From Paractinoplanes deccanensis (lineage in GTDB: Bacteria > Actinomycetota > Actinomycetes > Mycobacteriales > Micromonosporaceae), in the NCBI RefSeq assembly GCF_016862115.1, contig NZ_BOMI01000030.1, positions 1 through 64,000 on the forward strand: 64,000 nucleotides of DNA, in the 5' to 3' direction. Of this stretch, positions 7,752-61,967 are shown piece after piece. Position 1 is the first letter of the stretch. Each line of letters opens with the position of its first letter. A model generated the notes under the pieces. The model made no database searches and was not told the origin of the DNA. It saw nothing but the letters and a program-made list of their open reading frames with translations. A program made the position numbers and the translations under genes.

Positions 7752-8361
7752 CGGTGACGCGCATGTCTCCGGTGGCGGGGATGCCGTCGGCGAGGGCGTA
7801 CCGCAGCAGCACCGCGCCGTTCGAGGCGGTGACCGGGGGCTCCGCGAGGGTCAGGTTCGCCGGGACCTCGCCGCCGCCGAAGAGCTTCTTGCCGGTGCCG
7901 AGCACGAGGGGGTAGACCCACAGGTTGAGGCGGTCGAAGAGGCGCTCGTGCAGCAGCGTCTGTACCAGGTCGAGGCTGCCGATCACGTGGATGCTCTCGT
8001 GCTTGTCGCGGGCGGTGCGCACCTCGCTCGGCAGGTCGGGGCCGAGCAGCGTCGAGCCCGCCCAGCCGAGCGCCGGGGTGCCGCGCGAGGCCACGTACTT
8101 GGGGATGCGGTTGAACAGGCGGCCGATCACGTCGTCCTGGTGGGGCCAGTAAGCGGCGAAGATGTCGTACGTCTTGCGGCCCAGCAGCAGGGCGTCCATG
8201 CCCTCCATGCCCTTCAGCACCGCCTGGCCGACCTCCTCGGCGGGCAGGGGCGCCTGCCAGCCGCCGAACGGGAAGCCGCCCTCCGTGTCCTCCTCCGGGT
8301 GACCGGGCGCCTGCGCGACCAGGTCGAGCGTCGTGAACAGGTCGATGTGGATCGTGCCCAT
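7741..8361 (-). CDS. Dihydrofolate reductase-like RibD C-terminal domain protein
   Basis: A 206-residue stand-alone RibD_C/DHFR-like oxidoreductase, expected to bind NADPH in the cytoplasm. Visible family features are the N-terminal strand MGTIHIDLFTTLDL, the LLLGRKTYDIFAAYWP segment, and the C-terminal RLNLWVYPLVLGTGKKLF. I chose the ATG at 8361, which has GGAGGA four bases upstream. An upstream start at 8397 lacks one. It is the last gene after the alpha-mannosidase, 60 bp downstream, so it may be co-transcribed, but a link to glycan metabolism is not evident. Such proteins are common, poorly characterised reductases in actinomycetes. Confidence 0.85.
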   Translation of the reverse strand: MGTIHIDLFTTLDLVAQAPGHPEEDTEGGFPFGGWQAPLPAEEVGQAVLKGMEGMDALLLGRKTYDIFAAYWPHQDDVIGRLFNRIPKYVASRGTPALGWAGSTLLGPDLPSEVRTARDKHESIHVIGSLDLVQTLLHERLFDRLNLWVYPLVLGTGKKLFGGGEVPANLTLAEPPVTASNGAVLLRYALADGIPATGDMRVTVNE

Positions 8362-35717: not shown

Positions 35718-35905
35718 TTCCAGCACCTCGTGGACGGGTCGTTGCGGTGCCGTGGCCGGTCTCCTGGCTGACGGGTGACGCTCCGGCGGCCGGCCTTCCC
35801 AGGCGCACGCCCAGTGACCTCGCGGTGGCCGCCGGCATCCCGTTCACAGTGGCGAGGGCCGCGCCGGTCTCACACCGGCTTCCCGTTCACCACGGCAAGA
35901 TCACC
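35718..35905 (-). ncRNA. Cobalamin riboswitch
   Basis: On the minus strand, going 5' to 3', the hallmarks occur in order. First comes GGGAAGCCGGTGTGAGACCGGC, written here in parts as GGGAAGC, CGGTGTGA and GACCGGC (about 35884-35863). GCCACTGTGA and CACTGGG follow. Then GCCTGGGAAGGC is followed by GTCAGCCAGGAGACCGGCC (about 35771-35753), the B12-box region. The element ends just before the ribosome site of the binding-protein gene, so it probably controls translation or early termination. Boundaries are approximate. Confidence 0.92.
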
Positions 35906-35920
35906 TTAGCCGTACGGGCG

Positions 35921-48854: not shown

Positions 48855-51608
48855 GTGCTCCATCGATTCGCTCTCCGGCGCTCCCATGCCGTGGTGACCG
48901 CCGTGCTGATCACGGCGGGCGCCGGGCCGGCCACCGCCACCCCGGCGCAGGCCGGCCACCGCACCACCACCGTGATCTCCGGGAAGGCCCGTTTCGAGGT
49001 CCTCTCCCCCACCCTCATCCGCACCGAGTACGGGACTCTCACCGACGCGGCCACGTTCAACGTGATCGGGCGGGACTCCTTCGCGCCGGTGCGCTTCACG
49101 AAACGTACGGAGAAGGGCTGGCTGGTCCTCGACACCGGCGCGCTGACCCTGCGCTACAAGGTCGGGTCCGGCGCCTTCACGGCGGACAACCTGGACATCA
49201 AGCTCCGCAGCGGTAAGCAGACCGTGCGGGCCCAGCCGTGGGCCGGCCACTACCCGCCCGCCTGCGAGCCGGGCGTGCTCTGCGAGGCCGAGTCCCTGGA
49301 CGTGCGCGGGCCCGGCATCGCCAAGGACCACGCCGGCTACACCGGCTCCGGGTTCACCGCGGGCTTCACCGGCACCGGCGACGCGCTCGTGCTCACCACC
49401 GCCGCGTCGGGTTCCCTCCAGCTCGCCGTCCGCTACGCCAACAGCACCGGCGGCGACGGCCAGAACGTCACCCGCACGCTGACCGTGGCGGTCGACGGCG
49501 TGAACCAGACGCTCTCCCTGCCGCCCACCGCCAACTGGGACACGTGGGGCATCGCCACCGTGCCGCTCCAGCTCGGCACCGGCACGCACCAGATCAGCGT
49601 GCTGCGCGGCGCGAGCGACACCGGCAACGTCAACATCGACAGCCTCGCGATCGTGCACCCCGGCGACGCGTACCCCGCACCCACGCCGCCCGCCGCCGAG
49701 CCGTGCGCCTTCGGCTCGGTCTGCGAGGCGGACCACGGCACGCTCGCCGGCGGCGCCCGGACGGCGGCCGACCACAACGGATACTCCGGCGACGGTTTCC
49801 TGGCGGGCCTCGAGAGCACCAGCGCCTCGGCGTCGTTCCAGGTGACCGGCGTCCCGGCGACGGGCACTTACCGCGTCCAGCTGCGGTATGCCAACGGCAA
49901 GGCGGGCAGCCAGCCGATCCAGTCGCGCACGGTGACGGTCAACGGCACGACGGTCACGCTCCCGGCCACGTCGAGCTGGGACTACTGGCGCACCGTCGAA
50001 GCGCCGGTCACGCTGCGGGCCGGCACCAACACGGTGGCCCTGGCCTGCCCGACCGCCGCCAGCTGCAACGTCAACGTGGACACGATCGCGCTCGTCCGCG
50101 CCGGCACGCCGCTGCTCGCCCCGCACGCGCCGCTCGGCGGTTACCGCCGCGGGCTCGACGGGGTCAACGGCGCCGCGCTCACCGAGCCGGGCCTGCTCTA
50201 CCAGGACGGCTGGTCGCTGCTCGACGACTCCGCCTCCGCGCTCTACGACACCCGCACCGGCAAGGTCACCCAGCGTGCGGGCTCGGCACAGGACGGCTAC
50301 GTCTTCGCGTACGGCCAGGACTACAGCCGCGGCCTCACCGAGCTGTCGAAGCTGACCGGCCCCACGAAGCTGCTGCCGAAGTGGGCGTACGGCGTCTGGT
50401 ACTCCGAGTACTACGACCGCACCGCGAGCGAGTTCGAGGACATCGTCAAGCGCTTCCGCAGCGAGAACGTGCCTCTCGACGTGCTGATCGTGGACACCGA
50501 CTTCAAGGCGCCGGACAAGTGGAACGGCTGGAACTTCGACACCACCCGCTTCCCCGACTACGAGGCGTTCCAGGCCTGGCTGAAGAAGCAGGGGGTGCGC
50601 ACCAGCCTGAACATCCACCCGAGCATCCTCGGCTCGGACCCCAACTTCGCCCAGGCCCAGGCCACCGCGAAGGGCAAGCTCAAGCGCACCGGCTGCAACG
50701 GCGGCGCCGACTGCTACACCTTCGACTTCGGCGACCCCGACCAGCTGAAGGCGTATTTCGACCTGCACTCCGGCCTGGCCGACCCGGACTTCTGGTGGCT
50801 GGACTGGTGCTGCGACGCGTCCACCTCGTCGCTGGCGGGCGTGACCGGCGACGCGTGGATCAACCAGCAGTACGCGGCCCGCGACGGCTTCGCGTTCTCC
50901 CGCGCGTACGGCTCGTTGCAGGCCGGCGGCTACAGCAGCCCCACCGCCGTGCCCACCGGCCCGTGGGCGGACAAGCGCACCACGCTGCACTTCACCGGCG
51001 ACACGGTCTCCACCTGGGAGACGCTGCAGGCGCAGGTCGGCTACACGCCGGGTGAGTCGGCGGCCACCGGCCTCGCCGCGGTCAGCCACGACATCGGCGG
51101 CCATACCGGCGGCCTGTCCACTCTGCCCGGTGCGGAGCCGAACAGCACGAAATTGCCGGACGACCTGTACGCCCGGTGGGTGCAGCTCGGCACGTTCCAG
51201 CCGATCGACCGCCTGCACTCCAACCACAGCGACCGCCTGCCCTGGCAGTACGGCCCCGCCGCCAACGCCTCGGCGAAGAAGTTCCTCCAGCTGCGCGAGA
51301 AACTGCTGCCCTACACGTACGCCGCGGCGCAGCAGGCCACCCGCACGGGCACCCCGATCGTGCGCCCGATGTACCTGGCCTACCCCGGCCAGCAGGAGGC
51401 GTACGCCACCGCGGGCTCGCAGTACCTCTACGGCCCCGACTTCCTGGTCGCTCCCGTGACCACCCCCGGCGACACCGCCACCACCACGGTCTGGTTCCCG
51501 CCGGGCGACAACTGGAAGGACTACTTCACCGGCAAGGTCTACCGAGGAGGCACGACCCAGCAGGTCACGTCGACCCTCGACACGATGCCCGTCTTCGTCC
51601 GATCCTGA
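48855..51608 (+). CDS. Secreted GH31 alpha-glycosidase with two CBM-like domains
   Basis: A 917-residue exported enzyme. The N-terminus RFALRRSHAVVTAVLITAGAGPATATPAQA is a signal peptide. After a GH31 N-terminal beta domain, two carbohydrate-binding-like domains occupy about residues 134-275 and 282-416. Both carry the CEAE/CEAD and HNGY/HAGY signatures of CBM6/35-type modules and interrupt the GH31 fold. The catalytic barrel follows (WAYGVWYSEYYDRTASEFEDI, then DFWWLDWCCD with nucleophile Asp650, and VSHDIGGHTGG). It should release alpha-linked sugars outside the cell. The GTG at 48855 has GAGG eight bases upstream. The LacI-type palindrome before it suggests induction by sugars, and a long hairpin follows the stop. 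Confidence 0.9.
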   Translation: MLHRFALRRSHAVVTAVLITAGAGPATATPAQAGHRTTTVISGKARFEVLSPTLIRTEYGTLTDAATFNVIGRDSFAPVRFTKRTEKGWLVLDTGALTLRYKVGSGAFTADNLDIKLRSGKQTVRAQPWAGHYPPACEPGVLCEAESLDVRGPGIAKDHAGYTGSGFTAGFTGTGDALVLTTAASGSLQLAVRYANSTGGDGQNVTRTLTVAVDGVNQTLSLPPTANWDTWGIATVPLQLGTGTHQISVLRGASDTGNVNIDSLAIVHPGDAYPAPTPPAAEPCAFGSVCEADHGTLAGGARTAADHNGYSGDGFLAGLESTSASASFQVTGVPATGTYRVQLRYANGKAGSQPIQSRTVTVNGTTVTLPATSSWDYWRTVEAPVTLRAGTNTVALACPTAASCNVNVDTIALVRAGTPLLAPHAPLGGYRRGLDGVNGAALTEPGLLYQDGWSLLDDSASALYDTRTGKVTQRAGSAQDGYVFAYGQDYSRGLTELSKLTGPTKLLPKWAYGVWYSEYYDRTASEFEDIVKRFRSENVPLDVLIVDTDFKAPDKWNGWNFDTTRFPDYEAFQAWLKKQGVRTSLNIHPSILGSDPNFAQAQATAKGKLKRTGCNGGADCYTFDFGDPDQLKAYFDLHSGLADPDFWWLDWCCDASTSSLAGVTGDAWINQQYAARDGFAFSRAYGSLQAGGYSSPTAVPTGPWADKRTTLHFTGDTVSTWETLQAQVGYTPGESAATGLAAVSHDIGGHTGGLSTLPGAEPNSTKLPDDLYARWVQLGTFQPIDRLHSNHSDRLPWQYGPAANASAKKFLQLREKLLPYTYAAAQQATRTGTPIVRPMYLAYPGQQEAYATAGSQYLYGPDFLVAPVTTPGDTATTTVWFPPGDNWKDYFTGKVYRGGTTQQVTSTLDTMPVFVRS

Positions 51609-51618
51609 CGAGGACGCC

Positions 51619-51660
51619 CGGGCGCGCCTTCGGCTTCCACCGAGGCCGAAGGCGCGCCCG
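51619..51660 (+). terminator. Hairpin terminator after the GH31 gene
   Basis: GGGCGCGCCTTCGGC (51620-51634) pairs perfectly with GCCGAAGGCGCGCCC (51645-51659). One more C-G pair closes the base, giving a 16-bp stem with a ten-base loop. No U-tract follows, as is common in actinobacteria. Confidence 0.8.
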
Positions 51661-51697
51661 ACCCTTCGTGGCGCGCCCGCTGCGCCATGATGGGGCC

Positions 51698-52585
51698 ATG
51701 CGCCTGGTCTCGCTGCTTCCCTCCGCGACCGAGATCGTCTATGCCCTCGGCCTCGGGGACGATCTCGTCGGGGTCACCTTCGAGTGCGACGAGCCGCCAT
51801 CGGCGCGGGCCGAGAAGACCGTGGTGGTCGGCGGGCGCGACACCCGCGGCATGACGCCCGCGGAGATCGACGACTACGTCCAGACCCGGATGAACAACGG
51901 CGAGGACCTCTACACCCTGCACGCGGGCGCGCTGGCCGCCCTCGCGCCCGACCTGATCCTCACGCAGGACCTGTGCCGGGTCTGCGCCCTGCCGTCCGGG
52001 CACGTCAACGATGCTCTCGACCATCTGGGCTGCCGCGCCGACGTGCTGTCGCTCGACCCGTACACGCTCGACGAAGTGCTCGACACGATCCTGCGCGTGG
52101 GCGCCGCCGCCGGCGTACCGGAAAGGGCCGAAGCTCTCGTCGCGGGCCTGCGCGACCGTCTCGCGGCGGTGGCCCGGGCCGTAGCGGGTCGCCGCGCACC
52201 CAGGGTCGCGGTGGTGGAGTGGGTGGATCCGCCCTTCACCGCCGGTCACTGGGTTCCGGACCTGGTCACGGCCGCGGGCGGCGTCCCGGTCGCGGCTCGC
52301 GGCGGACGGCGTTCCGTGCAGACCACGTACGCGGAGCTGGCCGCGCCCGGCCCCGAGGTCGTCCTGGTCACGCCGTGCGGCTTCCACCTGGACGGCGCCG
52401 CGGACCAGGCCGCCGAGGTCGTGCCGCACTTTCCCGGCGCGCAGGTCTGGGCCCTCGACGGCGACAGCCTGATCGTGCGCCCCGGCCCGCGCCTGATCGA
52501 CGGCGCCGAGACGATCGCCGCGATCCTGCACCCCGGCGCGTTTCCCGCGGGCCCTAGCTCGAGATCCGCTCGACGTCTTTCTTGA
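51698..52585 (+). CDS. Cobalamin-binding-like (BtuF-type) protein without signal peptide
   Basis: A 295-residue protein of the BtuF/TroA fold. It begins MRLVSLLPSATEIVYALGLGDDLVGVTFECD and has LTQDLCRVCALPSG, WVDPPFTAGHWVPDLVTAAGG and VVLVTPCGFHLD, characteristic of the cytoplasmic 'cobalamin-binding protein' group. There is no signal peptide or lipobox and no transporter genes beside it, so it is not an ordinary ABC binding protein. Binding of a corrinoid or other ligand inside the cell is possible. The ATG at 51698 begins the domain. The last ten residues overlap the convergent 51-residue gene. Confidence 0.82.
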   Translation: MRLVSLLPSATEIVYALGLGDDLVGVTFECDEPPSARAEKTVVVGGRDTRGMTPAEIDDYVQTRMNNGEDLYTLHAGALAALAPDLILTQDLCRVCALPSGHVNDALDHLGCRADVLSLDPYTLDEVLDTILRVGAAAGVPERAEALVAGLRDRLAAVARAVAGRRAPRVAVVEWVDPPFTAGHWVPDLVTAAGGVPVAARGGRRSVQTTYAELAAPGPEVVLVTPCGFHLDGAADQAAEVVPHFPGAQVWALDGDSLIVRPGPRLIDGAETIAAILHPGAFPAGPSSRSARRLS

Positions 52586-52709
52586 GGGCCGCGCCCTCCT
52601 GCTCGGTCACGTCCTTGAGCGCCTCGGCGATCTTGTCGAGGGGCACTCCGGCCCGCGTCAGCGCTTCCACCCACCGCTCATGAACGGACTTGTCGGCGAC
52701 GTTCGACAT
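52554..52709 (-). CDS. 51-residue acidic/helical hypothetical protein
   Basis: A small open frame from ATG 52709 to TAG 52554. It reads MSNVADKSVHERWVEALTRA, then GVPLDKIAEALKDVTEQEGA and ends ALKKDVERISS. It is soluble, charged and almost wholly helical, and its codon use shows the GC-rich third positions of real genes in this genome. It overlaps the 3' end of the BtuF-like gene by 32 bp. I do not recognise a family. The clear amino-acid composition argues for a real protein. Confidence 0.65.
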   Translation of the reverse strand: MSNVADKSVHERWVEALTRAGVPLDKIAEALKDVTEQEGAALKKDVERISS

Positions 52710-52827
52710 GCTTCCAGCCTGTCAGCTCCCCGGCGCCGCATCAGCCCAACGCCGGAAAAGCTTCCCGCCGTCACGCTCCGGGCCGGTGCCTTCATGTTCG
52801 CTGCCGCGGTTGCCTCCCGCCGGGCCG

Positions 52828-53613
52828 TCAGTGGGCCAGGGCCGGGCGGCGGGCCGGGGTGGCGCGCTCCTCCGACCAGCGGCTGCGGGCCGCCTCGCGG
52901 ACGCGCATGGCGCGGTGCAGCCAGCGGACGTCGAGGCCGAACGACCAGGTCAGGGACGCCAGCGCCAGCGCCAGGACGGCGACCGCGGCGACCGTGGGCA
53001 GCAAGCCCGCGATCACCAGGGCGAGGGCGATGCCCTGCACGGCGGCGACGACCTTGCGGGAGAAGCGCGGGGGCAGGGCCGCGTTCAGCCACGGCCACGC
53101 CCAGGAGGCCGCCACGAAGGCGTACCGGAAGGCGCCGAGCGCGACCGGCCACCAGCCGTACCGGTCACCGGCGTAGACGCTGAGCACCAGGATCAGGAAC
53201 GCGTCGACCTCCATGTCGAAGCGCGCGCCGAGGGCCGTGGTCGTCTTCGTGCGCCGGGCCACCTGCCCGTCCACGCCGTCGAGGGCGAGCGCGACGCTCG
53301 CGATCGTGACGAGGGCCGGCACGCTGACCGGCTGAGTGAAGGACGTCACCACCATCGCGGTCACGCCGCCGACGAGGATCGCCCGGGACAGCGTCACGGC
53401 GTTGGCCGCGCCGAGCTCGTTCAGGCCGGCCCGGGCGAGGCCCGCGCCGAGCAGACCGCACAGCACCAGGCCGTACGCCGCCCCGGCCACCAGGCCGGCC
53501 GGCGTGAGCCCCAGGGTGCTGCCCAGCAGGGCGAGCAGCCCGAGCTGAGCGGCGAGGCCGAGCACCGGCCCGCGCGAGGGGCCCACCCCTGCATCTGCGG
53601 TACTGAGGGTCAC
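52828..53613 (-). CDS. CDP-alcohol phosphatidyltransferase-family membrane protein
   Basis: A 261-residue integral membrane enzyme. The family signature DGxxARx8GxxxDxxxD is present as DGQVARRTKTTTALGARFDMEVD near residues 115-137, preceded by AANAVTLSRAILVGG. It transfers a phosphoalcohol from a CDP-alcohol to an acceptor alcohol, as in phospholipid or polyol-phosphate synthesis. Six to seven hydrophobic segments surround the active site. It is divergent from the dehydrogenase that opens the pterin-like cluster, with 104 bp between, so it may belong to the same pathway. Confidence 0.88.
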   Translation of the reverse strand: MTLSTADAGVGPSRGPVLGLAAQLGLLALLGSTLGLTPAGLVAGAAYGLVLCGLLGAGLARAGLNELGAANAVTLSRAILVGGVTAMVVTSFTQPVSVPALVTIASVALALDGVDGQVARRTKTTTALGARFDMEVDAFLILVLSVYAGDRYGWWPVALGAFRYAFVAASWAWPWLNAALPPRFSRKVVAAVQGIALALVIAGLLPTVAAVAVLALALASLTWSFGLDVRWLHRAMRVREAARSRWSEERATPARRPALAH

Positions 53614-53717
53614 CGTGGCCTCCCGTTCACAAGATCGGCCGCCGCGTATGGTTGCCGTCGTCAGCGCTTAACACGAGCGGAACCGGCGATCGGTTCAGCC
53701 GCTGAAGGGATCAACGC

Positions 53718-54689
53718 ATGTCGGGTGACGCGGAAGCGTTCTGGCTCGCCGAGGCCGGCCGCGGCGAGATCCGCGCCGAGAAGGTCCGCGACCCCGGGCC
53801 GGACGAGGCCCTGATCCGCACCCTGCACACCGGCGTGAGCAGGGGAACCGAGACTCTGGTCTTCACCGGCCGGGTGCCCGAGAGCCAGTGGCCGTCGATG
53901 CGCGCGCCGTTCCAGGAGGGCGACTTCCCGGCCCCCGTGAAATACGGCTACCTGAACGTCGGCGTCGTCGAACAGGGGCCCGCCGAGCTGCTCGGCCGCA
54001 CGGTCTTCAGCCTCTTCCCGCACCAGACCCGCTTCGTGGTGCCCGTGTCGGCCGTCACGGTGGTGCCGGACGGCGTTCCCGCGCACCGCGCCGTCCTGGC
54101 CGGCACCGTGGAGACCGCCGTGAACGCCCTCTGGGACGCGGCCCCGCTGATCGGCGACCGCATCGCGGTGGTCGGCGGCGGCATGGTCGGTGGTTCGGCC
54201 GCGGCGATTCTGGCGCGCTTTCCCGGGGTACGGATGCAGCTCGTGGACGTCGACCCGGCTCGTGCCGACCTCGCCGCGCGGCTCGGTGTCGCGTTCGCGC
54301 ACCCGGACGACGCGCTGGGCGACTGCGACCTGGTGATCCACGCCAGCGCCACGTCCGCCGGGTTGAAACGTTCTCTGGAGCTGCTGGCGTACGAGGGCAC
54401 GGTCGTGGAGCTGAGCTGGTACGGCGACAAGCGGGTCGACGTACCGCTGGGCGAGTTCTTCCATTCCCGGCGGCTGACCGTGCGCGGCAGCCAGGTGGGC
54501 GGCATCCGGCCGGACCACCGCCGCTCGTACGCCGAACGCCTCGCCCTGTCGCTCGACCTGCTGCGCGACGACCGGTTCGAGGCGCTGATCAGCGGAAGGT
54601 CCCCGTTCGGGGACCTGCCCGCCGTCATGCCACGGCTCGCCGACGGTAGCCTTCCGGCTCTCTGTCACGTGATCGACTACAACCCCTGA
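53718..54689 (+). CDS. Medium-chain dehydrogenase/reductase-like protein
   Basis: A 323-residue MDR-superfamily oxidoreductase. The catalytic-domain start includes [29 protein letters not shown], and the nucleotide-binding loop is [18 protein letters not shown] near residue 150. The zinc ligands of alcohol dehydrogenases (GHE and CxxCxxC) are absent, so it is probably not a classic zinc enzyme. The ATG at 53718 follows a short spacer. It is first in a run of five same-strand genes and 13 bp before the PTPS-like gene, implying a shared pathway. Confidence 0.85.
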
Positions 54690-54702
54690 GGAGGAGCTGG
54701 CC

Positions 54703-55101
54703 TTGTTCAGCGTCACCGTCCGCGACCACATCATGATCGCGCACAGCTTCTCGGGCGAGGTCTTCGGACCGGCCCAGAAGCTGCACGGCGCGACCTTCGT
54801 GGTGGACGCCACCTTCCGCCGGCCCGAGCTGGACGACGACAACATCGTCGTCGACATCGGCCGCGCGAGCGAGGAGCTGCACGCGATCTGCGGCGGCCTC
54901 AGCTACCGCAACCTCGACGACGACCCGGCGTTCAAGGGCATCAACACGTCGACGGAGTTCCTCGCCAAGGTGATCGCCGACCGCCTGGCCGACAAGGTGG
55001 CCGCCGGCGACCTCGGCCCGGGCGCGTCCGGGCTGACCGGCATCTCGGTCACCCTGCACGAGTCGCACATCGCATGGGCCTCGTACGAGCGCGATCTGTG
55101 A
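54703..55101 (+). CDS. 6-pyruvoyl-tetrahydropterin synthase/QueD-like protein
   Basis: A 132-residue T-fold protein of the PTPS/6-carboxytetrahydropterin synthase family. It includes [50 protein letters not shown] and the C-terminal [12 protein letters not shown]. Compared with the family, zinc ligand His14 and His28 are kept, but the usual HGH is HGA (Ala30) and the catalytic Cys four residues before it is absent. Chemistry may therefore differ from QueD. The start is TTG 54703, with GAGGAGG seven bases upstream. Its stop overlaps the glycosyltransferase start (GTGA). Confidence 0.87.
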
Positions 55102-56381
55102 GCTCACCACTCTGGGCGGTGCTGCCGGGCGGGATCGACGACCCGGCGGCACCGAGCGGGGGCAACCGCTACGACCGGGCGGTGCTCTGCCGCCTCCACC
55201 GCGACGTGCACGAGCTGGCGATCGGCGGCACCTGGCCGTCGCCCGGCCCCGCGTCCCGGCGCGCCCTCGAGTGGGCGCTCGCCGACATCCCCGACGGCTC
55301 GCTGGTGCTCGTCGACGGCCTGGTCGGCTGCGGCGTGCCGGAGCTGCTCGAGCCGCACGCCCGCCGGCTGCGCCTGGCCGTCCTGGTGCACCTGCCGCTC
55401 AGTGACGAGACCGGCCTCTCCCCCGCCCGCGCGCGGGAGTTGCGGGCGAAGGAACGCGCGGCCCTGCACCTCGCCACCACGGTGATCGCCACCAGCCGGG
55501 CCGCCGCCGCCCACGTGGCGGCGATGCACGACCTGCGCCGCGTCGAGGTCGCCGCCCCCGGCGTCGACCCCGCTCCGCTCGCGGAGCCGCACCCCGACGG
55601 CCACCGCCTGCTGTGCGCCGCCGCGGTGTCGCCCCGCAAGGGCCAGGACCTGCTGGTCGGCGCCCTGGAGAACGACCTCGCCGGCCTGCGCTGGAAGTGC
55701 ACCTTCGCCGGCGCGCTGGTCAACCCCGTGCCCTACCTGAGCGGGAACATCCAGTTCGCCGGCCCGCTCGGCCCCGCCGAGCTGAATGTTGCCTACGCGA
55801 ACACCGATCTCTTCGTCCTCCCGTCGCGCGCCGAGACATACGGCATGGTCGTGACCGAGGCCCTGGCCCGCGGCATCCCGGTCCTCGCCACCGCCGTGGG
55901 CGGCGTCCCCGAGGCCCTCGGCACCACACCCGCCGGCCTGCCCGGCATGCTCGTGCCCCCGGACGACCGCCCGGCCCTGGCCGCCGCCCTGCGCGACTGG
56001 CTGACCCGCCCCGAGCTGCGGGCGTCGTTGCGAGCCGCCGCCCTGCAACGCCGCGCGACCCTGCCGACCTGGGAAGAGACCGCCCGCCGCATCACCGAGA
56101 TCCTGGACGCGACGGGCACCCGCGCGCCCGCCCCGGCGCAGCAGACCACCCCCGCGCCGCACACCACCTCCGCGCCTACCCCGGCGCCGCACCCCACCCC
56201 CGCGCCGCACACCACCCCCGCGCCGCACACCACCCCCGCGCCTACCCCGGCGCCGCACACCACCCCCGCGCCTACCCCGGCGCCGCACACCACCCCCGCG
56301 CCTACCCCGGCGCAGCGCACGTCCCCGGCGCCGGCCACCGCCTCGGCGCCGTCCCCCGAGATCGAAGGAGAGCCCACATGA
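55098..56381 (+). CDS. GT4-type glycosyltransferase with repetitive Pro/Thr tail
   Basis: A 427-residue GT-B glycosyltransferase. It lacks a signal peptide. The donor-binding half has [22 protein letters not shown] and [34 protein letters not shown], the GT4 EX7E motif. The N-terminal acceptor half is short. From about residue 345 the protein becomes a Pro-Ala-Pro-His-Thr-Thr repeat, of which three 30-bp units are identical at 56221-56310. It starts at GTG 55098, overlapping the PTPS-like stop, and ends overlapping the methyltransferase ATG, so the order synthase, glycosyltransferase, methyltransferase is translationally coupled. Confidence 0.9.
56221..56310 (+). repeat. 30-bp tandem repeat in glycosyltransferase tail
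   Basis: Three identical 30-base units begin at 56221, 56251 and 56281 and encode [10 protein letters not shown] in frame. Degenerate copies extend upstream to about 56150. The array is as clean as a minisatellite and is likely to vary between strains. Confidence 0.9.
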
Positions 56382-57145
56382 CCGGTGAGTTCAGCGAGTC
56401 CTGGCTGGGGCTGCGTGAGCCGGCCGATGCCGACGCCCGCGCCGCGGACCTGGTGGGGCTGCTCCCCGAGCCGATCCACGTGATCCGCGACCTCGGCTGC
56501 GGCACCGGCTCGCTCGGCCGCTGGCTGGCCCCGCGGCTGCCCACCCCGCAGCACTGGATCATGGCCGACCGCGATCCCAAGCTGCTGCACTACGCGACCT
56601 CGCACCTGCGGGTGCCCGGCGTCACCGTGGAGGGCGCGCTCGGCGATGTGACCGCGCTCACCGCCGAGGACCTGGCGGACACCGGCCTGGTGACCTGCTC
56701 GGCGCTGCTCGACCTGCTCACCGAGGCCGAGGTGGACGCGCTGGTCGCGGCGTGCGCGGCCGCGGGCGTACCGGCGCTGTTCACGCTGTCGGTGTCCGGC
56801 GAGGTCACGATGGACCCGCCGCTGCCGGAGGACCAGCGGGTCGCGGCCGCGTTCGACGAGCACCAGCGCCGCGTCGTGGACGGCCGCCGTCTGCTCGGGC
56901 CGGACGCTCCGGCGTACGCGGTCAAGGCGTTCGAGAAGGCGGGCGCAACCGTCGTGACCAGGCCCAGCCCTTGGAAGCTCGGTCCCGGCCGCCCCGAGCT
57001 GACCGCGGAGTGGCTGCGCGGCTGGGCCGGCGCGGCCCGTGAGCAGGACCCGAGCCTCGCGCTGGACGACTATCTCGCCACCCGCCTGGGTGACTTGCCG
57101 GCGGTCACGGTCGGACATGTCGATCTTTTAGCGATCTTCGGCTGA
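56378..57145 (+). CDS. Class I SAM-dependent methyltransferase
   Basis: A 255-residue methyltransferase. The SAM loop is IRDLGCGTGSLGRWLAPRL near residues 36-54, motif II is HWIMADRDPKLL, and motif IV is LVTCSALLDLLTEAEVDALV. The ATG at 56378 overlaps the glycosyltransferase stop (ATGA) and has AAGGAGAG upstream. Because it is translationally coupled to the glycosyltransferase, it probably methylates the same small molecule. The substrate is unknown. Confidence 0.9.
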   Translation: MTGEFSESWLGLREPADADARAADLVGLLPEPIHVIRDLGCGTGSLGRWLAPRLPTPQHWIMADRDPKLLHYATSHLRVPGVTVEGALGDVTALTAEDLADTGLVTCSALLDLLTEAEVDALVAACAAAGVPALFTLSVSGEVTMDPPLPEDQRVAAAFDEHQRRVVDGRRLLGPDAPAYAVKAFEKAGATVVTRPSPWKLGPGRPELTAEWLRGWAGAAREQDPSLALDDYLATRLGDLPAVTVGHVDLLAIFG

Positions 57146-57205
57146 ACCCTTTGTGCCCGCCCCGGCGTACTAGGGGAAAGACGGGCTATCGAAGGGGACG
57201 GCGAA

Positions 57206-58375
57206 GTGACGCGATCGATCTGGGTGTGGCTGCGGATCCTGGGAGGGGCCGGGATCCTCGGCTTCCTCCTGTGGCGGCTCGGCACCGGCGCCTTCCTGGA
57301 CGGCCTGCGGGTGATCGACCTGCCGCTGCTCGCGCTGGCGTTCGGCATCGGCGTGGTGACGACGGTCTTCAGCGCCTGGCGCTGGTGCCTGGTGGCGCGC
57401 GGCCTGGGCCTGCGGCTCACGCTGCGCGGCGCGATCGCCGACTACTACAAGGCGCTCTTCCTCAACGCCGCCCTCCCCGGCGGCGTCCTGGGCGACGTCG
57501 ACCGGGCGGTCACGCACGGCCGCGACGAGGGGGACGTCGCCCGCAGCGTGCGCGCCGTCGTCCTGGAGCGCACCGCCGGCCAGCTGGTCCTGATCGGCGT
57601 GGGCGTGACGGTCCTGCTGACGATGCCGTCACCCGTCCTGACGGCCCTGTCCCGGCACGGCGCCACCGTCGCGGTCGTCGCGGCGGCCGTCGCGGCGTCG
57701 GTGGTCATCCTCCTGCTGGCCGTCCGCAGGCTCCGCCAGGGCGGCTCCCGGGTAGCCTCGGCGGTCCGCACCGGCGCCGCCGAGATCCGCACCGGCCTGC
57801 TGGCCCGCCGCAACTGGCCCGGCATCACGCTCGCGTCGACGGCGGTGCTCGTCGGCCACCTCGCCACCTTTGTCGTGGCCGCCCGCGCCGCCGGCTCCAC
57901 GGCCTCCCTGACGCGCCTCGCGCCCCTCATGCTCCTGGCCCTGCTGGCCATGTCGCTGCCCCTGAACGTCGGCGGCTGGGGCCCGCGCGAGGCCGTCACC
58001 GCGTGGGCCTTCGGCGCCGCCGGCCTGAGCGCCACCCAGGGCCTGACCACGGCGGTCGTGTACGGCGTCTTCGCCTTCGTGGCGGCCCTCCCCGGCGCGG
58101 CCGTGCTCCTGGTACGCGCCACCGCCGGCCTGCGCTCCGCCCTCGCCGTCCGGGCCGCCGTCCCGGTCTCCCCGGCGCCCGCCACCGTCATGCCCGTCTC
58201 GGCCGTGCCGATCTCCCCGGCACCGGTTGGCGCACCCGTCTCTGCCGTGCCGATGTCGTCGGCGCCGGTCGCTCTCGTGCCCGTCTCGGCGCTGGCCGCC
58301 CCGGCGCTCGCCGTGGCCGCCCCGATCGCGCCGGAGATGCTGTTCGGCCGCGAGCTCGCCCGCGCCGGCGCCTGA
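57206..58375 (+). CDS. Lysylphosphatidylglycerol synthase TM-region/flippase-like membrane protein
   Basis: A 389-residue membrane protein of the UPF0104 (LPG_synthase_TM/AglD-like) family, with about eight hydrophobic segments. It includes FSAWRWCLVARGLGLRL, ADYYKALFLNAALPGGVLGDVDRAV and LLALLAMSLPLNVGGWGPREAVTAWAF, all family hallmarks. Members move or modify lipid-linked glycans or aminoacyl lipids. The last 70 residues form an Ala/Pro/Val-rich repeat (PVSAVPxSPAPV). The GTG at 57206 is 61 bp after the methyltransferase. It may carry the pathway product or a glycosyl lipid across the membrane. Confidence 0.86.
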   Translation: MTRSIWVWLRILGGAGILGFLLWRLGTGAFLDGLRVIDLPLLALAFGIGVVTTVFSAWRWCLVARGLGLRLTLRGAIADYYKALFLNAALPGGVLGDVDRAVTHGRDEGDVARSVRAVVLERTAGQLVLIGVGVTVLLTMPSPVLTALSRHGATVAVVAAAVAASVVILLLAVRRLRQGGSRVASAVRTGAAEIRTGLLARRNWPGITLASTAVLVGHLATFVVAARAAGSTASLTRLAPLMLLALLAMSLPLNVGGWGPREAVTAWAFGAAGLSATQGLTTAVVYGVFAFVAALPGAAVLLVRATAGLRSALAVRAAVPVSPAPATVMPVSAVPISPAPVGAPVSAVPMSSAPVALVPVSALAAPALAVAAPIAPEMLFGRELARAGA

Positions 58376-58508
58376 GGCGGCCCTCCTTGGCATGGGTCTT
58401 ACGCCGCGGCCCGTGGCCCCGCCCGGGCCGCGGGCCGAACACACGCCCGCGCGCCCACACCGGCCAGGCGCCGCATCCCGGCCCAGATGCGGGCCCCGGC
58501 GAACGCCC

Positions 58509-58526
58509 CGGCCCGGCGCCGGGCCG
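58509..58526. terminator. Palindrome between convergent genes
   Basis: CGGCCCGGCGCCGGGCCG is an 18-bp perfect palindrome four bases beyond the RibD-like stop and 133 bp after the membrane-protein stop. Together with nearby GC-rich inverted repeats (CCCGGGCCGCGGGC) it is a likely bidirectional terminator. Confidence 0.5.
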
Positions 58527-58530
58527 CGGG

Positions 58531-59223
58531 TCAGGCCGGCTCGTAGCGGTCGGAGAGGGCGTAGCGCAGCAGCACTACGTCACCGATCTGGCGGACCTCC
58601 GCCAGCGTGGCGCGACGCCCCGGGCCCCAGGGGAAGTCTCCGTCGCGGACGAAGCGCGGCGCCCGCGAGTCGCCCACGAAGAACGGCGCCACCACGAGCT
58701 GGAGCTCGTCGGCGAGCCCAGTGGTGAGGAACTGGGTGTGCATGCGCCCGCCGCCCTCGACCATCAGGCGCCGCACGCCCCGCCCGGCCAGGTCGGCCGT
58801 GACCCGGTGCAAGTCGACGGGGTCACCGCCGTCGACGACGGTCGCGACGTCGCCGAGCTTGGATCGGGCCGACTCCACCGACGGCGAAGCACAATAGACG
58901 ATTTTGTCCACTTCGCCCACGGTGAAGAACTGGGCACCGGGGTCGATCGCGCAGCTGCTCGTCACCGTCACCTTGATCGGGTGGGGCGACTCACCGCGGG
59001 CGACCCGGGCAGCGCGCCGCTCGCCGGAGCGCACCAGCAGCCGCGGATCGTCCTGCCGGATCGTCGCGGCGCCGACCAAGATGGCGTCGCAACCGGCACG
59101 AACGGCGTCGACTCGGTCGAAATCGGCCTCGTTGGACAGCAGCAGTCGCTCCTGCGACGTGTCGTCCAAGTAGCCGTCGATGGACATGCCGCAGCTCAGC
59201 AACGTGTAAGGACGCTCAACCAC
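58531..59223 (-). CDS. RibD C-terminal-type reductase (pyrimidine/pterin reductase-like)
   Basis: A 230-residue NADPH-dependent reductase of the RibD_C/DHFR fold, without the deaminase half of RibD. It starts PYTLLSCGMSIDGYLDD and has DAILVGAATIRQDDPRLLVR, RRLMVEGGGRMHTQFL and LQLVVAPFFVGDSRAPRF, the same motifs as riboflavin-pathway reductases. I choose GTG 59223, eight bases after GGAGG. It is divergent from GTP cyclohydrolase II, whose product is the natural source of the pyrimidine it would reduce. The two genes together point to a GTP-derived product. Confidence 0.88.
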   Translation of the reverse strand: MVERPYTLLSCGMSIDGYLDDTSQERLLLSNEADFDRVDAVRAGCDAILVGAATIRQDDPRLLVRSGERRAARVARGESPHPIKVTVTSSCAIDPGAQFFTVGEVDKIVYCASPSVESARSKLGDVATVVDGGDPVDLHRVTADLAGRGVRRLMVEGGGRMHTQFLTTGLADELQLVVAPFFVGDSRAPRFVRDGDFPWGPGRRATLAEVRQIGDVVLLRYALSDRYEPA

Positions 59224-59381
59224 CGATGACGCCTCCTGTAGAGCGACCATCGTCACCCTGGCCGAACAGTTGCGTCCAAGATAATCCGGGACACGATTAC
59301 TGGCACGTTCGCAATCTGTTGCGATGCGGTGACTCCGACTGCGGGTATAGCGGATCAACGGGGAACCAACGAGGAGGACCG

Positions 59382-60023
59382 ATGTTGAAAGCCACGGTGC
59401 GGCAGCAGGTGACCGTTCCACTGCGGTTCGGGGACGGGTACGCCACGCCGGCCCGGGTGATGACCTTCGACGGCCTCGTCGACGGCAAGGAGCATCTGGC
59501 CCTCGGCCTCGGCGACTGGCAGCGAGCCCTGAAGAAGTCCACGGCCGGCGGCCGCGCGCCTCTGGTGCGGCCGCACAGCGAGTGCCTGACCGGGGACGTC
59601 TTCGGCAGCCAGCGCTGCGACTGCGGCCCTCAGCTGCGCGAGGCCGTCGAGCGGATCGCCGAGCAGGGCGGCATCCTGCTCTACCTGCGGCAGGAGGGCC
59701 GCGGCATCGGCCTGTACGCCAAGCTGGACGCCTATGCCCTCCAGGACGCCGGCCTGGACACGTACGAGGCGAACGTCGCCCTGGGCCGCGGCGAGGACGA
59801 GCGCGACTACACGGCCGCCGCGCAGATGCTGCTGGCGCTCGGCGCCGACCGGATCCGGCTGCTGAGCAACAATCCCGACAAAGCGATCCAGCTGGAGAAG
59901 AGCGGGATCGAGGTGACCCAGCGCATCCCGACCGGGGTGCACATGTCCCCCACGAACGTTCGCTACCTGGCGACCAAGGCGTCACACACCGCTCACACGA
60001 TCGAGCTACCCCTTGCCGAGTAA
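59382..60023 (+). CDS. ribA: GTP cyclohydrolase II
   Basis: A 213-residue RibA-type enzyme that opens GTP to 2,5-diamino-6-ribosylamino-4-pyrimidinone phosphate, formate and pyrophosphate. The zinc site SECLTGDVFGSQRCDCG, the substrate loop RQEGRGIGLYAKLDAYALQ and the segment LLSNNPDKAIQLEKSGI are all intact. I choose ATG 59382, five bases after AGGAGG. The open frame reaches back to 59226 but lacks a ribosome site. It stands alone, without ribB or ribE beside it, which suggests a role in a special pathway with the adjacent RibD-like reductase and PTPS-like gene rather than house-keeping riboflavin synthesis. Confidence 0.92.
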   Translation: MLKATVRQQVTVPLRFGDGYATPARVMTFDGLVDGKEHLALGLGDWQRALKKSTAGGRAPLVRPHSECLTGDVFGSQRCDCGPQLREAVERIAEQGGILLYLRQEGRGIGLYAKLDAYALQDAGLDTYEANVALGRGEDERDYTAAAQMLLALGADRIRLLSNNPDKAIQLEKSGIEVTQRIPTGVHMSPTNVRYLATKASHTAHTIELPLAE

Positions 60024-60056
60024 CTGATGCCCGGGGTCATCCGGCACCATGTGTGG

Positions 60057-61967
60057 ATGGCGGACGACCCCGAGCTCATCCTCAACGCGGTCGACCAGGT
60101 GCCGTTCATCCTCGTCGTGTGCGAAGGCGCCGACCTGCGGGTCCTCCTGCTGAGCGGCGCCACCCGCGCCGTGCTCCCGGGCCGGGACTATCGCGGCCTG
60201 CCGATCCGCGAGGTGATCAGCGACCTGGTCGGCCAGCAGATCCTCGACGCCTACTACGAGGTCTACCGCACCGGCAAGCCGGTCGACGGCCAGGAGTGGC
60301 GGGTCCACCTCGACATGCCGGACGGCTCGGTGCACGAGATGTTCGCCAACTTCACGATCACGCCGTGGACCGTCGACGGCGAACGGCGCGGCGTGATCGG
60401 CCTCGGCTTCGACGTGACCGAGACGGTGCGCCGGCGACAGGCCGCGGCCGAGGACACCGAGCACCTGCGCCGCCGGTACGAGGAGAGCCGCGAGGTCATC
60501 ACGGCGCTCCAGCGCGAGCTGCTCCCCGCCGGGCTCCCCGTGCTGCCCGGCGCCCAGATCGCCGCCAGCTACCTGCTGGCCGACGCCGGCTCGGCCGCCG
60601 GCGGCGACTGGTTCGACGCCCTCGTCCAGCCCGACGGCCGCCTGGCCCTGATCGTCGGCGACGTCGTCGGTCACGGCGTGGCAGCCTCCGGCGTGATGGG
60701 CCAGCTCCGCGCCGTCCTGCAGGACCGCCTCCACTCCGGGGCCTCGGTGGCCGAGGCGATCGGCGCCGTCGACCGTTTCGCCGCCCGCGTGCCCGGCGCC
60801 CACGCGGCGACTGTCGCCCTCGTCGTGCTCGACCTCGTCTCGGGCACCCTCGAATACTGCACGGCGGGCCACCCGGCCCCGCTGGTCGTCGAGGGCACCG
60901 GCGGCACTCGCTACCTGCCTCTCACCGGCGCCGCCCCGCTCGGCACCGGCCGGGCCGCCGGAGACCCGGCGCACCCCGTGCTCTCGTCCAGGCTCGAGAT
61001 CGGCGATCTGCTCCTGCTCTACAGCGACGGGATCCTCGAACGGCCGGGCCGGGATCACTCGTCGAGCGCCGCCGAGCTGGCCCACTCCGCCGCGGACAGC
61101 GCCGCCGGCCGGGCGTTGCGCGACCCGGAGTCCACCCCGGCCGAACGGGTGTGCACGCAGACCGTCGAGCTGCTGGTGCGTGCCACCGGGCACGGCGACG
61201 ACATCACGCTGCTCGCCGTGCAGCGCGTGGCCCCCGTACCGGAACTGGCCCTTGATCTGCCGGCGGAGCCGGTCGCCCTGCGGGGAGCGCGCCATGAGCT
61301 GGGAGCCTGGCTGACAAAGGCGGGAGCGACGGAGCAGGACGTCTTCGTGCTCCAGCACGCGCTGGGGGAACTGATGACGAACGCGGTGGAGCACGCGGCC
61401 GCCGACGAGGGCGCGATGGTGACGGTGACGGCGGCGCTGACGGCCTCGGGCGCGATCGAGGCGGCCGTGATCGACCGGGGACACTGGCGGGAACCGTCGC
61501 GGCAGGAGAATCGCGGACGAGGGCTGGCTCTGACCTCCCAGCTGGTCGAGAGCCTGACGGTGACGCATGACACGGAGGGGACGGTCGCGCGGATCCGCCA
61601 GCCGCTGACGCGACCGGCCCGGCTGTTGGATCCGCACACGGCGCCGACGCCGCCTTCGGCACCGGCGGCGGTGGAGTTTCGCGTCGTCGAGCAGGCGGGT
61701 GACGACGAGACACACGTACGGGTGGAAGGGCCGCTGGACGCCGCAACGGCCTCGCTCGCCCAGCGCGAGCTGTTGCGCCGCAGCAGGGGTGGGGCTGTGC
61801 CTCTCACTGTGGAGTTGTCAAAGGTGACGCATCTGTCCAGCGCTGGGGTCTCCGCGCTGCACAACGTCGCGGCTCAGCACGCGGCTCAGGGAGCGCCGCT
61901 GAGTCTGGTCGCACCGCCGGGGTCGCCGGCGCAGACGATTCTGGCACTCGTCGCGCTGCTTCCCTGA
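60057..61967 (+). CDS. PAS-PP2C(SpoIIE)-HATPase-STAS four-domain stress regulator
   Basis: A 636-residue signalling protein combining modules usually found on separate proteins. PAS covers residues 1-120 (ILNAVDQVPFILVVCEGADLRVLLLSG). A SpoIIE/RsbU-like phosphatase covers about 145-370 (AGGDWFDALVQPDGRLALIVGDVVGHG, GHPAPLVV and GHGDDITLLAV). An RsbW-like histidine-kinase ATPase covers about 390-510 (FVLQHALGELMTNAVEHAAADEG). A STAS domain covers about 540-630 (LTVELSKVTHLSSAGVSALHNVA). The combination resembles a partner-switching cascade controlling a sigma factor in one chain. I choose ATG 60057, where the PAS domain begins; ATG 60027 is also possible. It follows ribA by 34-bp spacing without evident functional link. 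Confidence 0.9.
   Translation: MADDPELILNAVDQVPFILVVCEGADLRVLLLSGATRAVLPGRDYRGLPIREVISDLVGQQILDAYYEVYRTGKPVDGQEWRVHLDMPDGSVHEMFANFTITPWTVDGERRGVIGLGFDVTETVRRRQAAAEDTEHLRRRYEESREVITALQRELLPAGLPVLPGAQIAASYLLADAGSAAGGDWFDALVQPDGRLALIVGDVVGHGVAASGVMGQLRAVLQDRLHSGASVAEAIGAVDRFAARVPGAHAATVALVVLDLVSGTLEYCTAGHPAPLVVEGTGGTRYLPLTGAAPLGTGRAAGDPAHPVLSSRLEIGDLLLLYSDGILERPGRDHSSSAAELAHSAADSAAGRALRDPESTPAERVCTQTVELLVRATGHGDDITLLAVQRVAPVPELALDLPAEPVALRGARHELGAWLTKAGATEQDVFVLQHALGELMTNAVEHAAADEGAMVTVTAALTASGAIEAAVIDRGHWREPSRQENRGRGLALTSQLVESLTVTHDTEGTVARIRQPLTRPARLLDPHTAPTPPSAPAAVEFRVVEQAGDDETHVRVEGPLDAATASLAQRELLRRSRGGAVPLTVELSKVTHLSSAGVSALHNVAAQHAAQGAPLSLVAPPGSPAQTILALVALLP

Follow-up and report, generated by a model that had tools for sequence, protein, structure and literature searches.

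Many actinomycetes keep seven or eight genes together in a block in which the starting enzymes have been swapped between lineages and the others have been retained. Sequence comparison indicates that the GTP entry module of this block is interchangeable, a finding that is new here: it comprises either a GTP cyclohydrolase II (RibA) that keeps a particular tyrosine, as in Paractinoplanes deccanensis, or a RibA that lacks it, accompanied by a protein of the creatininase family. On balance we favour a pathway that starts from GTP, is separate from riboflavin synthesis and would lead to a sugar-decorated product.

The locus and its conservation

The window, that is the whole 64,000-nucleotide stretch of P. 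deccanensis DNA analysed, carries on its forward strand genes for an MDR-family dehydrogenase (53718-54689; PF00107, 32.5 bits against a cut-off of 31.8), a PTPS-like T-fold protein (54703-55101; PF01242; TTG start), a GT4 family glycosyltransferase (55098-56381; PF00534, 77 bits; GTG start), a class I SAM-dependent methyltransferase (56378-57145; PF13649, 38.7 bits; ATG start) and an LPG_synthase_TM membrane protein (57206-58375; PF03706, 110.9 bits, the sole family found). A stand-alone RibD_C reductase on the reverse strand (58531-59250; PF01872, 135 bits, again the sole family) is divergent from the forward-strand ribA gene (59382-60023; PF00925, 193 bits), and the intergenic region between them (59251-59381) has no Rfam match at the gathering threshold. 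The preliminary description listed these seven genes, all of which are present with Pfam support (53718-60023), but overlooked a conserved membrane protein of the CDP-alcohol phosphatidyltransferase family (52828-53613, reverse strand; PF01066, 49 bits), divergent from the dehydrogenase. The translational coupling that it proposed for the PTPS-like, GT4 and methyltransferase genes is borne out by two overlaps of four bases, GTGA (55098-55101) between the PTPS stop and the GT4 start, and ATGA (56378-56381) between the GT4 stop and the methyltransferase start.

Neighbourhoods of this PTPS clade were collected from 169 loci, 165 of them distinct once four duplicates had been removed. Eighty were the best 80 of 557 relatives and 80 more were hand-picked from 130 plus 55 genome matches, favouring unusual families, so that the locus frequencies are not population estimates. 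The GT4 gene is present in 163 of the 165 distinct loci, the dehydrogenase in 162, the LPG-type membrane protein in 155, the CDP-alcohol enzyme in 149, the methyltransferase in 135 (it is absent from 30) and GTP cyclohydrolase in 128; the 37 loci scored as having no RibA include some that end at contig ends (L061, L269, L276 and others). Dehydrogenase, PTPS and GT4 occur together within the stretch in 160/165, a grouping that exceeds chance, and 17 named genera are represented among the 80 named loci (the best 80 of the 557 relatives). The genes thus do co-occur in the genome-neighbourhood survey that the preliminary description had called for. The clade itself scores above 100 bits in 10 of 396 genomes, and a scan of viral contigs found no relative, leading us to reject a phage or viral link.

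The GT4 gene lies within 4 kb downstream of PTPS, and on the same strand, in every locus that has it (163/163). In a minority of loci the dehydrogenase or RibA has moved to a different side of the core, and the CDP-alcohol transferase is mostly divergent; in 21 loci the latter shares a single open frame with a sulfatase-like stretch, and it is joined to none of the other genes. RibA is fused to RibD_C in three loci, with both domains confirmed by Pfam in each, and to LPG_TM in one (L229). Beyond this set no other family was found in more than 7 of 23 genus labels, in a search whose gene calling did not pick up the creatininase, a gene that overlaps others. The earlier interpretation stands as regards co-occurrence and separateness from riboflavin, but both the exchange of the entry module and the CDP-alcohol and sulfatase-like partners had gone unnoticed.

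Two forms of the GTP entry module

The window RibA scores 262 bits with the curated model NF001591 (cut-off 148) and has the zinc motif, its three cysteines lying in CLTGDVFGSQRCDC. In LDAYALQ it keeps a tyrosine that aligns with that of the genome's own RibBA and that we take to occupy the position of Tyr105 in Escherichia coli numbering; the tyrosine at that position has a role in completing deformylation. No creatininase-family gene was found in loci with such a tyrosine-keeping RibA (0/47), nor among the window genes scanned. In the 80 loci whose RibA lacks the tyrosine (Met in 52, His in 20, Leu in 6, Gln in 2; L238, in which RibA is cut at this site, was left out), a creatininase gene is found within the stretch in 79, and in the 80th it lies about 14 kb from PTPS, just outside the stretch.

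On a core-gene tree, which carries long-branch warnings, tyrosine loss and the creatininase each change 11 times; among eight independent pairs, a modest test, 7.3 change the same way and none the opposite way (median p 0.016). The same paired test on the RibD, sulfatase-like and methyltransferase genes gives a median p of 1. On the RibA tree a single change accounts for the tyrosine loss, implying that the pairing of RibA with creatininase arose once, and the repeated changes on the core-gene tree are gains and losses of the module. Nor is the link mere adjacency, since in 21 of 79 loci PTPS lies between creatininase and RibA.

The creatininase belongs to PF02633 (214 bits against 31.3 for the L049 protein) and has the metal ligands E42, H44, D53, H123 and E173 in 80-81 of 81 rows, L049 being counted twice; it scores closest to MftE, at 134 bits, below the cut-off of 172. 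As the best reading of these patterns, we infer that the tyrosine-less RibA stops at a formylamino-pyrimidine and that the creatininase removes the formate, in which case both modules would deliver the same diaminopyrimidine. The Met enzyme SCO6655 is reported to yield the formylated product (Spoonamore 2006). A RibD_C gene of either kind was not found in 53 of the 80 creatininase loci, and reduction is therefore not locally encoded in every version; a distant RibD_C is found in 16 of the 52 Met loci.

SCO6650 and SCO6655 of Streptomyces coelicolor are very likely members of a locus of this type. The window PTPS is an orthologue of SCO6650 (PDB 3d7j; phmmer 3e-64), with 97 of 130 residues identical, and the Streptomyces loci match the window in their core and its gene order, with four genes (GT4, methyltransferase, LPG_TM and creatininase) separating PTPS from RibA, in agreement with the numbering from SCO6650 to SCO6655. 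They have a Met RibA and a creatininase, as does the locus closest to S. coelicolor (PTPS 94.6% identical), and no close relative of the window reductase, whereas the window has the Tyr RibA and the reductase, with no creatininase among the genes scanned. Expression of SCO6652 rises about 17- to 20-fold in the aerial and spore stages, according to the passage cited (PMC3610822).

The front end of archaeal riboflavin and F420 synthesis (GCH III, ArfB, ArfC) resembles that of the tyrosine-less relatives in its stop at a formylated pyrimidine, its separate deformylase and its reduction before deamination, and ArfB has the creatininase fold. The archaeal cyclohydrolase is, however, a GCH III in place of the bacterial RibA fold found here, the creatininase falls far short of the ArfB model (NF033501, 36.6 bits; cut-off 180), and a deaminase and lumazine synthase follow there, in contrast to the coupled PTPS, GT4 and methyltransferase here. 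The BrbF formamidase of Sinorhizobium and Brucella, likened here by its description, is a creatininase-annotated enzyme, and the Sinorhizobium protein has been shown to deformylate the same formylated intermediate; BrbF serves riboflavin, with a partner cyclohydrolase called still undiscovered in the part of that report cited (PMC9478397), whereas in the present loci the partner is encoded alongside, in a pathway other than that of riboflavin.

The PTPS-like protein and its partners

In the window PTPS the third zinc histidine is replaced by Ala30 and Glu120, the pterin-anchoring residue, is retained. Ala30 recurs in 164 of the 166 rows, with Val in one and a gap in another, so that the histidine is lost in all 165 readable rows, and Glu120 is present in 166/166. 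The window motif, GPAQKLHGA, has neither the three zinc histidines nor the CxxxHGH, CxxxxxHGH or ExxHGH signatures that the passage cited gives for COG0720 subfamilies I-III (PMC5041015), and with the zinc site lost we reject a classical QueD/PTPS function. A sister PTPS lineage has an intact zinc motif and the gene set RibD-ADH-PTPS-GT4-MT; queries with the CDP-alcohol, LPG_TM and sulfatase-like proteins found no match in its loci. These adjoin folB in 7/7 genomes, in six of which it is the only copy, and this folB may simply serve folate.

The CGTD-type motif is the usual catalytic-zinc motif of MDR alcohol dehydrogenases. The window dehydrogenase has SRGTE instead (positions 41-45, conserved in at least 95% of rows from 162 loci and the window), and its only cysteines, at 203 and 316, leave the N-terminal half without a zinc ligand of this kind; its best NCBIfam match, BchC, at 45.5 bits, is far below the cut-off of 291. 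For the RibD-like reductase no deaminase domain was matched, and its score with TIGR01508, the ArfC/Rib7 equivalog model, is 136.5 bits against a cut-off of 186.45. Its nearest PDB entries are 5xux (1.4e-35; labelled only 'Conserved protein', presumably Rib7), 6p8c (2.2e-24) and 2azn (1.9e-18), compared with only E 7e-4 for a dihydrofolate reductase chain. It is thus nearest the Rib7/ArfC type and may work like one, though not filed as one.

The glycosyltransferase ends in a low-complexity Thr/Pro/Ala tail. Its model (residues 1-351 of a longer ORF from 55074; pLDDT 94.3) has MshA as best VIA match (Z 33.8, rmsd 2.6, 329 aligned). Cyanobacterial pterin glycosides, which also combine a PTPS-fold protein and a GT4 in one pathway, offer a parallel, UDP-Glc:tetrahydrobiopterin glucosyltransferase being among the GT4 relatives (5ze7, E 1.2e-4; fold match 9v0l, Z 29.5, rmsd 2.8, 313 aligned), but MshA and sucrose-phosphate synthase score higher, and in cyanobacteria the route begins with GCH I and a PTPS that has an active zinc site. 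For both GT4 and the methyltransferase (model pLDDT 95.5) the structure searches gave family-level answers, and the folds do not indicate the acceptor. The protein previously called LPG-synthase-like does have the PF03706 membrane (flippase-like) region, but no aminoacyl-transfer domain was matched and it scores 17.5 bits against 600 for MprF, the lysylphosphatidylglycerol synthase. For the sulfatase-like and CDP-alcohol proteins, searching the PDB by sequence gave no match at E 0.001.

A proposed pathway and its alternatives

In the pathway that we favour, for which we infer the chemistry, the step order, all reactions after DARoPP and the membrane linkage, RibA would open the guanine ring of GTP, releasing formate and pyrophosphate, to give 2,5-diamino-6-ribosylamino-4(3H)-pyrimidinone 5'-phosphate (DARoPP). 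In other lineages the tyrosine-less RibA would halt at the formylated intermediate and the creatininase-family deformylase would complete the conversion. The Rib7/ArfC-like reductase would then reduce the ribosyl chain, leaving the ring undeaminated, and the zinc-less PTPS fold, with its pterin-anchoring Glu, could bind the 2-amino-4-oxo ring and close or rearrange it towards a pterin. The dehydrogenase would act on the side chain, GT4 would glycosylate the compound and the methyltransferase would methylate it, and LPG_TM, the CDP-alcohol transferase and, in many relatives, the sulfatase-like protein would carry the glycoside through the membrane or link it to a phospholipid. The end product would be a 2-amino-pyrimidine or pterin glycoside, perhaps membrane-linked. 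No published product was found in the literature searched, which included few subscription papers, in agreement with the preliminary description.

Could these simply be extra riboflavin genes, supplying flavin precursors in stress or stationary phase beside unrelated glycosyltransferase, methyltransferase and membrane genes? RibA and RibD_C are families of riboflavin enzymes, but the true ribD, ribE, ribBA and ribH genes (identified by Pfam) form a complete operon with an FMN riboswitch on another contig (L053). The window has no FMN riboswitch, and no deaminase, RibE or RibH domain was found among the ten window proteins scanned (51572-61967), placing the locus outside the riboflavin operon and removing the objection, raised at the outset, that its RibA and RibD-like proteins might be required only for riboflavin. 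Moreover, the same core occurs with two separate RibA lineages, with a RibA-RibD fusion or with no RibA. The passage cited from PMC2853524 files SCO6655 under riboflavin metabolism, but also lists it with genes that run counter to the predicted flux (correlation -0.61). With the true operon and riboswitch elsewhere we reject this explanation as highly improbable.

A pterin route, in which an Amadori rearrangement of DARoPP and ring closure give dihydropterin monophosphate, would make the locus a second, GCH II-based entry to pterins, with the RibD-like protein as dihydropterin reductase (RibD_C is DHFR-like) and, as product, a pterin glycoside cofactor resembling the cyanobacterial ones. The invariant pterin-binding Glu, the folB gene beside the sister loci, the pterin glucosyltransferase among the GT4 relatives and the many creatininase loci in which no RibD_C gene was found, as a late or dispensable step could show, are all consistent with it; we nevertheless regard it as rather unlikely, as the nearest solved relatives of the reductase are named DARoPP reductases or RibD, with dihydrofolate reductase only distant, and MshA and sucrose-phosphate synthase outscore the pterin enzyme. 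Less probable still is that two pathways share only their regulation, a lipid or glycolipid module (CDP-alcohol transferase, sulfatase-like protein, LPG_TM, GT4 and methyltransferase) and a GTP-derived cofactor module (RibA, RibD-like protein, PTPS and dehydrogenase). The divergent CDP-alcohol transferase, its exclusive joining to the sulfatase-like stretch and the shifting sides of dehydrogenase and RibA would suit such a division, but it is opposed by the constant placing of GT4 behind PTPS, with overlapping codons in the window, by the LPG_TM-RibA fusion, and by the sister lineage, which keeps GT4 and methyltransferase with RibD, dehydrogenase and PTPS where the other lipid genes find no match.

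Returning to the single GTP-starting pathway, we suggest, as a tentative possibility, that it makes a pteridine- or diaminopyrimidine-carrying glycophospholipid, mostly in aerial hyphae and spores, via GTP cyclohydrolase II, its entry step existing in at least two interchangeable forms, the one-enzyme form and the tyrosine-less cyclohydrolase with its creatininase-family deformylase. SCO6650 and SCO6655, which we take to have been studied as isolated curiosities, respectively a PTPS fold lacking its metal and a cyclohydrolase whose reaction ends midway, here gain one context, and the half reaction a testable reason: a partner deformylase in the same locus, alongside a natural alternative that needs none. 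The tyrosine-less cyclohydrolase and the creatininase-family protein are a candidate bacterial pair of cyclohydrolase and deformylase; in the passage cited, the BrbF authors called the cyclohydrolase of such a pair undiscovered (PMC9478397). Since the locus is widespread, with one or more of its genes induced as S. coelicolor develops, and since no product was found in the literature searched, deleting it from a laboratory strain could bring to light a new class of conserved metabolite.

The gene set and its separation from riboflavin synthesis

All seven genes that the preliminary description placed at 53718-60023 are present by Pfam: a dehydrogenase, a PTPS-like T-fold protein, a GT4 glycosyltransferase, a methyltransferase, an LPG_synthase_TM protein, a RibD_C reductase (minus strand) and RibA (GTP cyclohydrolase II). 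The translational coupling claimed for three of them is visible in the overlaps, GTGA between PTPS and GT4 and ATGA between GT4 and methyltransferase. On grounds of conservation, a predicted CDP-alcohol phosphatidyltransferase (52828-53613, minus strand) is counted into the set. The contig, C30, belongs to a 10.6 Mb genome; the closest loci with a name are those of Paractinoplanes. This genome has 23 RibD_C matches; one, at 7840-8349 (minus strand, 41.5 bits), is an additional gene of the window, apart from the set. A PAS-SpoIIE-HATPase-STAS regulator (60027-61967) begins directly past the ribA stop, and at 8 of the 9 Actinoplanes-type loci that were compared the gene after ribA has a similar N-terminus.

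Among 396 genomes sampled across the phylum, 10 have a relative of the PTPS-like protein scoring above 100 bits. At E 1e-25 such relatives occur in 130 of 397 genomes from the order, spread over 31 of 86 genera, and in 55 of 394 from the class, spread over 24 of 138 genera. The best 80 of 557 relatives come from 17 named genera and two MAGs. Neighbourhoods were read at 169 loci (9 + 80 + 80, from separate scans), of which 165 are distinct, a sample partly chosen to favour unusual families. Co-occurrence of the genes in other genomes, on which the original proposal depended, is borne out, with the core kept: PTPS 165, GT4 163, dehydrogenase 162, LPG_TM 155, CDP-alcohol transferase 149, methyltransferase 135 and RibA 128. 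RibD_C of any kind is found at 94 loci, at 75 of them at least 45% identical to that of the window, creatininase at 80 and a sulfatase-like gene at 62. GT4 lies less than 4 kb downstream of PTPS on the same strand at all 163 loci that have it, and the dehydrogenase lies upstream, on the same strand and within 4 kb, at 148 of 162. GT4 and methyltransferase share one frame at one locus (L116, 10866-12692, domains by Pfam), where a sequencing error is possible.

The alternative that the RibA and RibD-like proteins are required only for riboflavin is contradicted by the same genome, in which another contig, C175, carries a run of ribD (with deaminase domain), ribE, ribBA and ribH (by Pfam; stretch L053) behind an FMN riboswitch (L053 4303-4470). 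An Rfam scan found no FMN riboswitch in the window, and Pfam found no deaminase domain in the window's RibD-like protein. The sole window match at the Rfam gathering threshold is a Cobalamin riboswitch (35737-35909, minus strand, 82 bits). Two more RibA paralogues lie on contigs C143 and C109. The latter (L055 7909-9436), 74% identical to that of the window, is directly 5' of a LigB-type ring-opening dioxygenase, and the pair is possibly a second orphan GTP-derived pathway; the former (L054 3259-3849), stand-alone and 68% identical, is flanked by an ABC-2 membrane protein and a VanY-like gene.

Two forms of the entry step

The product of SCO6655, the Streptomyces coelicolor RibA counterpart, is reportedly a formylated pyrimidine, and in archaea the formyl group is taken off by a creatininase-fold enzyme; a pairing of cyclohydrolase and creatininase was therefore expected beforehand. 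At three loci, typed as Streptomyces by near-identical named loci, a creatininase-family gene (PF02633, 214 bits at locus L049) lies between LPG_TM and RibA on the opposite strand, and RibA has Met in place of the window's Tyr, at the E. coli Tyr105 position. Across the 165 loci, RibA retains Tyr at 47, with creatininase at none, whereas Tyr is replaced at 80 (52 Met, 20 His, 6 Leu, 2 Gln), with creatininase at 79. At the sole exception, L258, the creatininase lies just outside the stretch read (G1109 C1:3221887-3222528). One RibA, cut at the Tyr site, is outside this tally. Creatininase occurs at 1 of the 37 loci without RibA (L218), in whose genome the single RibA match is RibBA-like. Identity of the creatininases to the one at L049 ranges from 54 to 100%, and PTPS lies between RibA and creatininase at 21 of the 79 loci.

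In a phylogeny built from four core proteins, which carries long-branch warnings, Tyr state and creatininase each change 11 times. Well supported branches provide 8 independent pairs, in which the two changed in the same direction 7.3 times on average and in the opposite direction never (median p 0.016, range 0.008-0.031); applied to the RibD, sulfatase-like and methyltransferase genes, the test gave a median p of 1. The RibA tree counts against this: Tyr loss is one change there, the letter at the site changing 6 times in all, so that the pairing has a single origin, and its later gains and losses involved both genes together.

RibD_C genes associate with the Tyr form of RibA: at the 47 Tyr loci they are at least 45% identical at 41, distant at 3 and missing at 3, and at the 80 creatininase loci close at 11, distant at 16 and missing at 53. 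Their absence from many two-enzyme loci weakens the claim of reduction in every version. The window's RibD-like protein falls below the TIGR01508 cut-off, its closest solved chains being 5xux (which we take to be M. mazei Rib7), 6p8c and 2azn.

RibA and RibD_C form one open frame at L081, L243 and L263 (both domains by Pfam), and LPG_TM is fused to a Tyr-less RibA in one open frame at L229 (4974-7172, minus strand; Pfam), where a sequencing error is possible. For seven loci without RibA the genomes were searched: in two a close RibA (75% and 69%) lies unlinked to the locus, and five have only a RibBA-like match (51-54%), G402 also having two 37-residue fragments. This outcome would be expected if DARoPP, the diaminopyrimidine product of RibA, can be used from the riboflavin pathway.

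The PTPS-like protein, its partners and a sister lineage

At the third zinc His position the PTPS clade has Ala in 164 of 166 rows (Val in 1, a gap in 1), and Glu120 is retained in all 166. The unusual PTPS start codons at the 165 loci (TTG 77, GTG 47, ATG 28, CTG 10, 3 unreadable; window start at 54703) perhaps represent a conserved weak start. Residue conservation across loci shows that the catalytic-zinc Cys is absent from the dehydrogenase. The top structural match of GT4 is MshA (Z 33.8, rmsd 2.6, 329 aligned), with sucrose-phosphate synthase (33.1), BshA and SenB also matched and tetrahydrobiopterin glucosyltransferase lower (Z 29.5). Several of these use small acceptors, and polysaccharide and lipid glycosyltransferases are listed too, so the fold matches fit more than one kind of acceptor. 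The CDP-alcohol transferase and a sulfatase-like stretch form one open frame at 21 loci; in the set tested, PF01066 was found in 7 of 7 and PF00884 was also over cut-off in 1 of 7. Loci with the joined frame include L251, L226, L239, L231, L232, L238 and L259. The window's genome has three sulfatase-like relatives elsewhere.

A sister PTPS from a distant actinobacterial family, f18, has the HGH motif intact and the gene order RibD-ADH-PTPS-GT4-MT; this locus is an older relative. Twenty short loci (L024-L043, 19 from f18) have the dehydrogenase at 19, RibD_C at 18 and GT4 at 16; of the four lacking a GT4 match, three are truncated loci, and the methyltransferase was seen in longer stretches. 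All 7 genomes searched for dihydroneopterin aldolase have a gene for it standing divergently beside the sister locus; in 6 of the 7 it is the sole copy, so it may serve folate.

Expression and overall reading

If four genes separate SCO6650, the PTPS orthologue of S. coelicolor, from SCO6655, then SCO6652 would by position be the methyltransferase. In PMC3610822 it is among 53 listed conserved genes of unknown function, with log2 changes of 0.8, 4.3 and 4.1 at 24, 48 and 72 h versus early mycelium. In PMC2853524, SCO6655 has a correlation to predicted flux of -0.61, and most genes so listed with it rise in stationary phase.

We conclude that the locus is a real, widely conserved, non-riboflavin pathway, which very probably starts from GTP. 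The swapped entry step is the new and most testable result of this study. Our best guess for the end product is a pterin or diaminopyrimidine that is glycosylated, usually also methylated, and linked to the membrane.
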